This document shows positions 1,109 to 41,410 of a stretch of 64,000 nt of DNA, one piece after another. The number at the start of each line of letters is the position of its first letter. The first letter of the stretch is position 1. A program made the position numbers and the translations under genes. The stretch is taken from the NCBI RefSeq assembly GCF_001579845.1, contig NZ_CP007440.1:868001-932000 (forward strand), written 5' to 3'. The DNA comes from Rhodoplanes sp. Z2-YC6860 (GTDB lineage: Bacteria > Pseudomonadota > Alphaproteobacteria > Rhizobiales > Xanthobacteraceae). The notes under the pieces were generated by a model, which was not told where the DNA came from, did no database searches, and saw only the letters and a program-made list of their open reading frames with translations.

Positions 1109-1245
1109 GTCATTCCGGGGCGCGGGCGCAGCCCGCGAACCCGGAATCCAGTTCCGGACGCGAAGTGCGCGTCTGGATTCCGGGTTAGGCCATAGTGCGT
1201 GGAAGACGCGCGTAAACGCACTGGGGCGCGCCGCCCCGGAATGAC
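1109..1245. repeat. REPIN-like inverted repeat, 137-bp variant
   Basis: The element begins GTCATTCCGGGG and ends CCCCGGAATGAC, so its ends are inverted copies. The left unit (1109-1150) contains its own hairpin (CGCGGGC/GCCCGCG) and ends ACCCGGAATCCAG. The right unit starts CTGGATTCCGGG at 1173. Compared with the 105-bp copies at 13650, 38610 and 41306, the right unit carries a longer, different interior (about 1186-1222). It lies between cobS and cobT, so it is probably transcribed with them and may fold in the mRNA. Confidence 0.8.
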
Positions 1246-3236: not shown

Positions 3237-3285
3237 GCGCATGTCCCGGAAAAGTGGACACCGGTTTTCCGGAAAGGACATGCGC
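3237..3285. repeat. 49-bp palindromic repeat (GCGCATGTCC ... GGACATGCGC)
   Basis: The two 10-bp ends are perfect inverted copies, with inner GGAAAA/TTTTCC pairing around a GTGGACACC centre. From memory, this palindrome type is widespread in intergenic regions of Bradyrhizobium and relatives; that is recollection, not a search. It lies upstream of the phytase-like gene at 3349 and should not be counted as coding. Confidence 0.7.
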
Positions 3286-3299
3286 CACCCGATAACCGG

Positions 3300-3333
3300 A
3301 GCCCATCGCGTTTCCTTTGAAACGGGATGGGCT
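3300..3333 (+). other. Leader hairpin upstream of the phytase-like gene
   Basis: Two stacked stems, 3300-3307 with 3326-3333 (AGCCCATC/GATGGGCT) and 3309-3314 with 3319-3324 (CGTTTC/GAAACG), are separated by one bulged base on each side. The hairpin ends 3 bases before the AAGGGG ribosome-binding site and 15 bases before the TTG start at 3349. Its position suits control of translation or an attenuator; this is inference. Confidence 0.5.
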
Positions 3334-3348
3334 CTAAGGGGTTTAGCC

Positions 3349-4371
3349 TTGAAAACCGTCGTCTCCCGCATCGCAGCCTTTCTGGCGATCCTCGCGCTCG
3401 CGCTGATTCCGGCTGCGGCGCAGCCGCCGCACGAGTCAGGCCCGCATCGGATCGACATCAAGGCGCAGGCGATCGATGCCTTCGATGCCCGCAATCCGAA
3501 GCAGACGCGTTTTGGCGCGCTGGATTTCCGGGGCGGGCTGTTGCTGGAATCGCCCGCGAGAGACTTCGGCGGCATCTCGGCCATTCGTGTCGCGGCCGAT
3601 GGGCAGAATTTTCTCGCGCTCACCGACAAGAGCAACTGGCTGCGCGGCCAGATCGTCTACCGCGGCATCGCGCCGATCGCGATCCGCGACGCCGAGATGG
3701 CGCCAATGCTGGGTCCCGATCGTCTGCCGCTCAAGCGACGCGGCTGGTACGACACCGAGTCGCTCGCCGAGGACGGCGGCACGGTCTATGTCGGCATCGA
3801 GCGCGTGCAACGGATCGTGCGGTTCGACTACGGCCGCGACGGGCTCACGGCGCGCGGTATTCCGATTCCGGTGCTGCCGGCGTTCAAGACGCTGCCGAAA
3901 AACGGCAGCCTCGAGTGCCTGGTGATGCCGCCGCACGGCGGGCCGCTGGCCGGGACCTTGATTGCGATCTCCGAGCAGGGCCTGGATGCCCGCGGCAACC
4001 GCTTGAGCTTCCTGATCGGAGGCGGCAACGACGGCACATTTGCGCTCAAGAATACCGATGATGATTTTGACATCAGCGATTGCGCGCTGACGCCCAATGG
4101 CAAGATGTTGGTCTTGGAGCGCCGCTTCTCCTGGACCAGCGGTTTTGCGATGCGCATCCGCTCCGTGCCGCTGGCGTCGATCAAGCCCGGCGCCACCGTT
4201 GACGGCCCGGTGCTGATCACCGCCGACATGGGCTCGCAGATCGACAACATGGAAGGCCTGTCGGTGCATCGCGCGGCCGACGGCACGCTGGTGCTGACGC
4301 TGATTTCCGACGACAACTTCTTCGCGCTGCAACGGACCGTGTTGCTGCAGTTCGGGCTGGTGGGGGAGTAA
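3349..4371 (+). CDS. Secreted esterase-like protein of the phytase-like family
   Basis: The product looks like a periplasmic protein of the phytase-like/esterase-like beta-propeller family (annotated elsewhere as 'esterase-like activity of phytase'); its substrate is unknown. I chose the TTG at 3349 because it follows AAGGGG and opens a clean signal peptide (LKTVVSRIAAF then a hydrophobic run ending IPAAAQ). Earlier in-frame ATGs lie inside the palindromic repeat at 3237. This gives 340 residues. Supporting segments include DFGGISAIR, a DTESLAED stretch and C-terminal DNMEGLS, which are typical acidic calcium-binding-like positions of the family. It appears to be a single-gene transcript. Confidence 0.75.
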   Translation: MKTVVSRIAAFLAILALALIPAAAQPPHESGPHRIDIKAQAIDAFDARNPKQTRFGALDFRGGLLLESPARDFGGISAIRVAADGQNFLALTDKSNWLRGQIVYRGIAPIAIRDAEMAPMLGPDRLPLKRRGWYDTESLAEDGGTVYVGIERVQRIVRFDYGRDGLTARGIPIPVLPAFKTLPKNGSLECLVMPPHGGPLAGTLIAISEQGLDARGNRLSFLIGGGNDGTFALKNTDDDFDISDCALTPNGKMLVLERRFSWTSGFAMRIRSVPLASIKPGATVDGPVLITADMGSQIDNMEGLSVHRAADGTLVLTLISDDNFFALQRTVLLQFGLVGE

Positions 4372-4443
4372 GCTCTCTCACCTGGTGATTCCGGGGCGCG
4401 AGCGTAGCGAGCGAACCCGGAATCCATAACCACGACTTTCGCG

Positions 4444-4731
4444 ATGGCGTACTACGTCTATCTGCTTGCCAGCGGCAAACACGGCACGCTTTACGCAGGC
4501 GTATCGCGCGACTTGGTGCGCCGCGTCTATCAACACAAGACAAAGGAAACGCCGGGCTTCACGTCACGCTATGACGTAACTCGCCTTGTCTGGTTTGAAG
4601 TCTATGACGATCCGATGTCAGCGATCGACCGCGAAAAAGAGATCAAGAAATGGCGGCGAGACTGGAAGGTCACGCTGATCGAAAATGAAAATCCCGACTG
4701 GGATGATCTCTACAACTCGATAACAAAATAG
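4444..4731 (+). CDS. Small GIY-YIG nuclease (UPF0213-like)
   Basis: This 95-residue protein is a minimal GIY-YIG endonuclease domain. Visible family features are YYVYLL (the GIY strand), GTLYAGV (the YIG strand, here YAG), the Arg-rich helix DLVRRVYQHK, and the IDREKEIKKWRR helix containing the conserved metal-binding Glu. The domain cuts DNA in known members; the role of stand-alone versions is unclear. There is no recognisable ribosome-binding site before the ATG. By eye, its base composition is less GC-rich than its neighbours. It is enclosed by inverted repeats (4385-4433 and 4771-4817), which suggests the gene travels with the repeat or acts on it. Confidence 0.88.
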   Translation: MAYYVYLLASGKHGTLYAGVSRDLVRRVYQHKTKETPGFTSRYDVTRLVWFEVYDDPMSAIDREKEIKKWRRDWKVTLIENENPDWDDLYNSITK

Positions 4732-4747
4732 GGCGGCAGAGCCGCCC
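4731..4747 (+). terminator. Hairpin at the end of the GIY-YIG gene
   Basis: A perfect 7-bp stem GGGCGGC/GCCGCCC (4731-4737 with 4741-4747) with an AGA loop begins on the last base of the stop codon. There is no T-run behind it. It is a probable 3' hairpin of the nuclease transcript inside the inverted-repeat element. Confidence 0.4.
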
Positions 4748-4855
4748 CATCGTCAAACCAATCGAGACTTGTGGTTATGGATTCCGGGTTCGCGCCTTCG
4801 GCGCGCCCCGGAATGACGCCGGAGAGACCGTCCGGCTCCGGAGCGAAATCGGCTA

Positions 4856-13649: not shown

Positions 13650-13754
13650 GTCATTCCGGGGCGCGCCGAAGGCGCGAACCCGGAATCCAGAAACGAGAGT
13701 GGAGTTTGCATCTGGATTCCGGGTTCACTCGCTGCGCTCGCGCCCCGGAATGAC
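13650..13754. repeat. 105-bp REPIN-like element
   Basis: Two inverted half-units, 13650-13690 (GTCATTCCGGGG ... GGAATCCAG) and 13712-13754 (CTGGATTCCGGG ... GGAATGAC), flank a 21-base spacer. Each half-unit has its own mini-hairpin, CGCGCC GAA GGCGCG on the left and CGCTGCG-centred on the right. It sits between two convergent genes. It has exactly the same length as the copies at 38610 and 41306. Confidence 0.85.
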
Positions 13755-38609: not shown

Positions 38610-38714
38610 GTCATTCCGGGGCGCGCCGAAGGCGCGAACCCGGAATCCAGTTACGGATAAAGTTCCTGCTGGTCTGGATTCCGGGTTCGCCACTTCGTGG
38701 CGCCCCGGAATGAC
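38610..38714. repeat. 105-bp REPIN-like element
   Basis: Half-units 38610-38650 and 38674-38714 (both 41 bases) are inverted copies with a 23-base spacer. The left mini-hairpin is CGCGCC GAA GGCGCG and the right is CGCCAC TTC GTGGCG; the arms differ in sequence but both pair perfectly. It lies between the CoA ligase and MBL genes. Confidence 0.85.
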
Positions 38715-41305: not shown

Positions 41306-41410
41306 GTCATTCCGGGACGGCGCGAAGCGCCGGACCCGGAATCCAGACGCAAATTCGGCGCCCGGAACTGGATTCCGGGTTCGCGAGCTTCGCTCGCGCC
41401 CCGGAATGAC
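41306..41410. repeat. 105-bp REPIN-like element
   Basis: Half-units 41306-41346 and 41368-41410 flank a 21-base spacer. The left mini-hairpin is CGGCGC GAA GCGCCG and the right is GCGAGC TTC GCTCGC, again different sequences that both pair. It occupies most of the gap between the cupin and amidohydrolase genes. Confidence 0.85.

Follow-up and report, generated by a model that had tools for sequence, protein, structure and literature searches.

A small GIY-YIG nuclease as the probable dedicated enzyme of CGTC-type REP repeats

A family of small GIY-YIG nucleases is coupled with REP repeats of the CGTC type, and this coupling is well supported. We consider it probable that the nuclease is the dedicated enzyme of these repeats, nicking at the hairpin tag and mobilising or copying REP pairs. 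The repeats that flank the genes, the pairing of each gene with the abundance of its own repeat, and the lack of a RAYT match in the host genome all count for this reading. CGTC-type REPs form a large repeat family for which the accessible text of a 2013 survey names no enzyme (PMC3733652). If the reading is true, an orphan repeat class gains a mechanism and the little-studied UPF0213 family gains a function. The mobility of bacterial repeats would also have been invented twice, with unrelated nucleases. Natural pairs of enzyme and hairpin, whose specificity varies by clade, make the question directly testable.

The gene-bearing element and its repeat family

The window, by which we mean the whole stretch of 64,000 nucleotides that was analyzed, carries the element at 4385-4818. 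Its gene (4444..4731, plus strand) codes for a UPF0213-like GIY-YIG nuclease of 95 aa and was assigned by its open reading frame, Pfam match, conserved residues, and dN/dS. The left REP unit (4385..4426, plus strand) consists of the tag GTG, a hairpin with the stem ATTCCGGG/CCCGGAAT, and the tail CCA. Its inverted arms, its folding, and its membership in the same family as 162 genomic units identified it. The right REP unit (4778..4818, minus strand) is inverted, with a TGG tail, a hairpin, and a GACG tag, and was identified by sequence, pattern match, and folding. The inverted arms pair 4395-4441 with 4763-4809 and 4385-4400 with 4802-4817. Folded as single-stranded DNA, the arms gave z values of -3.67 (0 of 200 shuffles equal) and -3.24 (3 of 200). 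The original prediction of a 95-codon GIY-YIG gene enclosed by inverted REP units was confirmed by the open reading frame, the PF01541 match, and the inverted arms. The left tag (4385-4387) is GTG, whereas most copies have GTC, and the pattern search described below skips the left unit for that reason. The mutated tag suggests that the window element may be a partly decayed copy.

Between the REP units and the gene, TAACCAC (4427..4433) and GTGGTTA (4771..4777) were read on the plus strand as the two halves of a 7-bp inner extension. The prediction had described this extension as absent from copies without the gene. The extension itself was there as claimed, but it was not confined to the gene-bearing copy. 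The gene-less copy L252, located at about 960.45 kb of the host genome, carries both halves as CCATAACCAC...GTGGTTATGG (1 of 20 own-genome pairs read by eye), which ruled the extension out as a hallmark of gene-bearing copies. Another gene-less pair, L256, has CCATGACCAC on one side only (again 1 of 20, by eye). The inner ends of the 20 gene-less pairs, also read by eye, were CCAG...CTGG in 15 and mixed in 3.

The pattern GTCATTCCGGGN{5,35}CCCGGAAT had 8 matches in the window, and the mean in 100 shuffles was 0.00. Six of the matches made up three gene-less REP pairs (REPINs) of the same family: 13650..13754 (units at 13650 and 13716; fold z -10.45; L250), 38610..38714 (units at 38610 and 38678; fold z -11.54; L251), and 41306..41410 (units at 41306 and 41372). 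The remaining two were a single unit on the plus strand (1109..1147) and the right unit of the nuclease element. The host genome (8.19 Mb, one contig) contains 76 + 86 = 162 exact units with the CC tail. In 20 own-genome regions, picked for looking paired, a pair was found in all 20. The REPINs were 99-106 nt long in 19 of these, and L252 with its TAACCAC extension was 138 nt long. Outside the tag they share a degenerate extension (consensus region CTCCCCGCGGTC), which is strongest at -8 to -3. No target-site duplication was found in the 20 REPINs (k=4, 2 of 20 versus 0.43 expected; k=5-7, 0 of 20), and we count this against the nuclease as the partner of the repeats. An Rfam search gave tRNA as its sole match.

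The host genome has five genes related to the window nuclease, one of them distant. Its four UPF0213-like genes (L011, L012, L013, and L014) are accompanied by four different stem families. The distant GIY-YIG gene L009 had a flank score of 11, under the threshold of 14. A search for the Y1 transposase domain of RAYTs (PF01797) found no match in the host genome, whereas 5 of 14 genomes gave a match in the control search, so a RAYT route appears unlikely for the repeats of this genome.

Against Pfam, the window protein matched only PF01541 (GIY-YIG, E 6.9e-15); PHROGs and NCBIfam gave it no name. Among 64 sequences, Y6, Y17, R27, H31, and N83 were invariant, and E64 was kept in at least 90%. 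We take the catalytic residues of the GIY-YIG domain to be Tyr, Tyr, Arg, Glu, and Asn, here Y6, Y17, R27, E64, and N83. The catalytic-residue set of the superfamily (PF01541) thus appears to be kept in this family, and nuclease activity is predicted. The dN/dS ratio was about 0.04 between the window gene and L016, a pair whose synonymous sites are almost saturated, and ranged over 0.015-0.13 for eight further gene pairs, pointing to strong purifying selection on the nuclease gene. The sole solved relative found by sequence was PDB 1zg2 (BH0048, E 0.0054).

Flanks of related genes and repeat abundance

Relatives of the nuclease were gathered by protein similarity, not by repeats. The main sample consisted of the best 80 of 378 confirmed genomic loci, the loci of the own genome and genus, and six plasmid records; L010 and the UvrC-like L015, which stops short of the end of its gene, were left out of the flank test. 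We compared 150 nt on each side of the gene, and a score of at least 14 was taken as matching inverted flanks. Of 115 distinct related genes, 114 had flanks that could be used, and 89 of these matched in this way. The controls were ORFs of at least 150 aa from the same loci, longer than the nuclease genes, and 4 of 380 reached the score. In a second sample, 29 loci found by an order-level search, the numbers were 16 of 29 genes and 0 of 46 controls. These flank counts are not independent because many loci come from related species; in a larger set, flank comparison sorted 192 genes into 53 clusters, the largest of them, with 132 genes, being possibly over-merged. Most related GIY-YIG genes were therefore flanked, as the original prediction had expected. 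The genes below the threshold (25 of 114, and 13 of 29 in the second sample) count against the nuclease as a REP partner.

Hairpins were scored separately, and a GTC-tagged hairpin was required within 200 nt on each side. Around the nuclease genes (n = 115), tagged hairpins stood on both sides in 64 cases, on one side in 26, and on neither in 25. The corresponding numbers for the control ORFs (n = 380) were 4, 61, and 315. The tags in 154 scored flanks were CGTC (92), TGTC (40), AGTC (12), and GGTC (10), GTC being required by the scoring itself; 115 of the 154 flanks had the CCA tail. The usual order was GTC tag, hairpin, CCA tail, about 20 nt, and start codon, with the mirror image past the stop. 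The median distance from the nearest left hairpin to the start codon was 20 nt (IQR 18-23), and that from the stop to the right hairpin was 15.5 nt (12-28). Tagged hairpins on both sides also occurred in records titled Planctomycetaceae, Elusimicrobia, Ignavibacteriae, and Magasanikbacteria (L079, L081, L083, and L087); these records are MAGs, so contamination is possible.

Some loci had features of their own. A Sinorhizobium GIY-YIG gene (L156 1250-2520, and L165) has long mosaic repeats on both sides; these carry a CCTC-like tag and a CCA tail and look similar to RIME elements. On a Planktothrix plasmid (L160), a related GIY-YIG gene has a type IIL restriction enzyme on one side and DISARM drmA on the other. 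Several entries listed as plasmids in PLSDB (CP090106.1, NZ_CP119140.1, and similar ones), 2-5 Mb in size, look like chromosomes.

The stems differ among loci (ATTCCGGG, ATTGCCGG, ATGGCCGG, ATCGCCGG, GTCCCGGG, GTCCCCGC, ATTCCCGC, and others). On a tree of 45 thinned labelled proteins, which excluded four long-branch rows and every row without a label, the stem label changed 14 times. In 300 shuffles it never changed fewer than 16 times (mean 18.6). Support in the full nuclease tree was low for most forks, with 9 of 106 inner branches starred. Judged by the labelled tree, stem sequence goes with nuclease clade. Repeat family E (stem GTCCCGGG) has its own nuclease clade and is without the usual unpaired GTC tag before the stem (L011, L104, L111-L113, L117, and L119). 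The tag scoring skips this family and therefore undercounts tagged flanks. The arrangement also varied by clade. Genes of clade A1 lie mostly inside one REP pair. Genes of clade A2 (L274-L276 and most of L299-L326) have whole REP pairs with a CTCGAG centre around them, mostly within about 35 nt of the start or stop. That A2 genes lie mostly between whole pairs and not inside one counts against the partner reading.

Repeat abundance was compared with gene presence in 195 Bradyrhizobium genomes, assigned to this genus through their named relatives. Exact A1 units and A2 dimer centres with the CTCGAG spacer were counted, exact patterns only. The A1 and A2 gene sets were compiled by hand from match lists after the A2 repeat had been seen; an internal stop was present in 6 of 54 A1 and 3 of 41 A2 gene matches, and a few matches were partial. 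The median number of A1 units was 80 in the 54 genomes with the A1 gene versus 25 in the 141 without it (p 7.8e-12). The median number of A2 units was 25 in the 41 genomes with the A2 gene versus 5 in the 154 without it (p 7e-11). The cross terms, one clade's gene against the other's repeat, gave p values of 0.16 and 0.23 in the same 195 genomes. Each nuclease clade predicted the abundance of its own repeat and not that of the other, which is a double dissociation. Together with the negative search for a Y1 transposase in the host genome, it supports the earlier suggestion of a REP partner different in kind from RAYTs.

To control for kinship, groEL regions from 100 of the 195 genomes were used; four under 1500 nt were dropped, and independent pairs on supported branches were drawn from the remaining 96. 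For the A1 gene and A1 units, 7.9 of 16 pairs agreed in direction and 0.8 were opposite (median p 0.039, range 0.001-0.73). For the A2 gene and A2 units, 7.3 of 14 agreed and 0.1 were opposite (median p 0.016, range 0.002-0.22). The cross terms gave 3.9/3.6 and 4.0/2.7 (median p 1). The control on 96 genomes agreed with the double dissociation, with sign-test values reaching up to 0.73 for A1 and 0.22 for A2.

A first classification by E-value (75 versus 120 genomes, medians 64 and 23.5, p 7e-9) had mixed clades A1 and A2 and was replaced. Under that classification, at least 60 A1 units were present in 23 of the 120 genomes without a matching gene, indicating that the enzyme is not required for the repeats to persist. 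In an order-level sample, 7 of 150 genomes had exact A1 units. According to the tables, they were present in 3 of 7 genomes with a GIY-YIG match of at least 60% versus 4 of 143 others. This association is suggestive, but kinship and the use of an exact pattern confound it, and the comparison was therefore moved to a single genus.

Occupied and empty sites, and the alternatives

The window element lies between an ORF (3241-4371) and a convergent rpmB-like gene, an order kept in 22 of 30 loci. Two of the 22 syntenic loci (G000 and G004) carried the element, and 20 were without it. An intact A1 pair was missing from 19 of these 20 gene-less sites, which are divergent and were read by eye.

In Bradyrhizobium, an element is located between genes that we take to be groEL and lepB, and 17 of 195 genomes had a full-length match there. 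Another 20 groEL-lepB sites were read by eye; 19 of them were chosen mainly for a short gap, and the following counts are not a frequency. Five had single fused hairpins, three had end remnants, one was repeat-free, and one was uninformative. One had an internally deleted element with both inner ends kept, and nine had a different, GTAG-like REPIN (L207-L209 and L211-L216). The site is a common landing place of two unrelated repeat systems, the GIY-YIG element and the GTAG-like REPIN. The gene at this site in L270, L271, L273, and L297, with REP units around it, is opposite in orientation to that in L049. In L270, L271, and L273, both REP units point in the same direction.

Where relatives carry the full element, L201, L203, L205, L206, L210, L162, and L169 have a lone fused hairpin that is tagged at each end (GTC...GAC, degenerate in some). 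A fused hairpin with a head at both ends is the expected product of deletion between the arms of two units. It is perhaps the scar of excision or of such an arm-to-arm deletion. In two Sphingobium plasmids, a fused hairpin likewise stood at the place of the gene in relatives, and two others had neither. A supposed empty site in Sinorhizobium was discarded, as the compared genome carries the gene too. The whole unit was present in some relatives and absent in others at orthologous sites, although the sites are not base-exact. Sites without the element thus exist, as the prediction required, both at the window locus (2 of 22 with the element) and at groEL-lepB. The opposite outcome, a gene in syntenic position in all relatives with flanks unrelated to the repeats, was not what we found.

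The ends of the unit were examined with pairs of elements at different loci. In the closest pair, L281/L075 (88% identical in the gene, two genomes, unrelated flanks), similarity ran from CTCGTC to GACGAG and then ended on both sides. Among the other close pairs, L290/L175 had the same tag-to-tag ends, L176/L066 was clear on the left only, and L287/L292 was unclear. In 34 more distant pairs (12 flank clusters), identity was 0.27 outside the tags and 0.28 over the 16 nt that precede the start codon; the matched heads were picked by motif and are identical by construction. Since identity is at chance both outside the tags and in the inner linker, the ends cannot be placed from these distant pairs alone. 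The main grounds for a tag-to-tag unit are the close pairs and the site comparisons. Recent movement was not caught, the best pair being 88% identical and from two genomes in a comparison not designed for within-genome copies, and we count this against the partner reading.

The main rival is homing into REP pairs. A free-standing GIY-YIG homing endonuclease would cut between the halves of an existing pair and be copied in by repair through homology of the REP arms, so that the repeats would be its target and not its vehicle. GIY-YIG enzymes are known homing endonucleases, A1 genes lie mostly inside a REP pair, and both gene orientations occur at groEL-lepB (groEL downstream in L270, L271, L273, and L297, and upstream in L049), all as homing would have it. 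However, the 20 gene-less groEL-lepB sites mostly lacked an intact family pair, the one pair being the internally deleted element, and so did 19 of the 20 gene-less window sites by eye, with divergent sites in both cases. A2 genes lie mostly outside a pair, and homing alone leaves the higher repeat number with the matching gene unexplained. We consider homing unlikely, yet the strongest of the alternatives.

Somewhat less likely still, the nuclease might serve the host by processing or stabilising REP hairpins as DNA or RNA, with repeat abundance driving retention of the gene. The correlation between gene and repeat has no direction, the gene is under apparently strong purifying selection, and 17 of 195 genomes have the element at groEL-lepB, which would suit a host function. 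Such a function does not explain why repeats stand on both sides of the gene at fixed distances, or why the gene is so patchy (54 and 41 of 195 genomes).

The nuclease could also be incidental, if small isolated genes gather REPs at both ends simply through the landing of REPs in intergenic DNA. The accessible text of Di Nocera 2013 (PMC3733652) places REPs mainly between genes, and our controls were not size-matched. This idea is nevertheless very improbable: the controls gave 4 of 380 and 0 of 46, though with longer ORFs (at least 150 aa), the left and right flanks match each other, the stems are clade-specific, and the double dissociation contradicts it. Movement of CGTC REPs in trans by RAYT-type tyrosine transposases, for which GTAG-like REPINs at the same groEL-lepB site (9 of 20) might speak, is just as hard to credit, given 162 exact units in a host genome with PF01797 unmatched (control search positive in 5 of 14 genomes) and no tyrosine-transposase gene flanked by CGTC repeats in the accessible text of Di Nocera 2013 (PMC3733652).

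With the nuclease as the enzyme of the repeats, we infer the following route, including its direction of cause and movement in present-day cells. The REP pair would become single-stranded, as on the lagging strand, or be extruded. The nuclease would recognise the hairpin together with the GTC tag at its foot and would most likely nick at this tag. Release or copying of the pair, whether or not it encloses the gene, would then bring it to a new site. Gene-less pairs (REPINs) would multiply as non-autonomous passengers, and the nuclease gene would stay at few copies. The low-copy gene looks more like the helper of many gene-less copies than like an insertion sequence. We give about even chances to the broader proposal that REP-mobilising enzymes evolved independently a second time, as GIY-YIG nickases specific for hairpin and tag that move DNA in bacteria with no need of an HUH, DDE, serine, or tyrosine transposase and that gave rise to the CGTC-type repeats of many phyla.

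Comparison with known systems

By fold family, as judged from sequence, and by conserved residues, the protein belongs with the UPF0213/GIY-YIG single-domain family (BH0048, PDB 1zg2). The literature searched by family names, as far as its accessible text goes, gave neither a function nor a repeat association for UPF0213. With classical insertion sequences and MITEs, the nuclease element shares presence and absence at orthologous sites; the target-site duplication of such elements was absent here (20 own-genome REPINs). I-TevI and I-BmoI are GIY-YIG homing endonucleases, and the catalytic domain and selfish spread are common to both them and our family. Unlike them, the nuclease has 95 aa, which leaves no room for an extra DNA-binding domain, and its flanking repeats exist in many gene-less copies.

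The accessible text of Di Nocera, De Gregorio, and Rocco (2013) describes a CGTC super-family whose hairpin has a CGTC (or TGTC/CCTC) tag at its base, a stem of 8-9 bp beginning with AT, and a CCA tail (PMC3733652). Its members form inverted dimers and are found mainly in alpha-proteobacteria, with Bradyrhizobium named as a host (PMC3733652). The window repeats have the tag (GACG in the right unit), a stem beginning with AT (ATTCCGGG), the CCA tail, and inverted dimers (three pairs); all membership features, namely tag, stem and tail, and mostly inverted dimers, were thus present, the left tag of the nuclease element being mutated. In the same text, CGTC repeats are apparently without a dedicated transposase, and a GIY-YIG gene is not mentioned for them (PMC3733652). 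In titles and abstract starts of the literature searched, no link was found between GIY-YIG, UPF0213, or YhbQ and REP, REPIN, RAYT, MITE, or palindromic repeats; preprints and most subscription journals lay outside the search, and earlier publication is possible. The accessible part of a Moraxella paper has a RayT gene and a GIY-YIG gene both among clade-specific genes, without joining them.

The closest likeness is to the RAYT/REPtron/REPIN system. PMC3116915 is presumably Bertels and Rainey 2011. Its accessible text describes RAYTs as single-copy genes with their own REPIN groups (PMC3116915). Both systems have tagged hairpins in inverted pairs, a low-copy, diverse, and clade-specific enzyme gene flanked by its own repeat, and gene-less pairs in tens to hundreds of copies. 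The RAYT system combines GTAG-tagged REPs with an IS200/IS605-like HUH/Y1 tyrosine transposase, whereas here the tag is CGTC with a CCA tail, and the enzyme, a GIY-YIG nuclease, shows no match to the Y1 domain.
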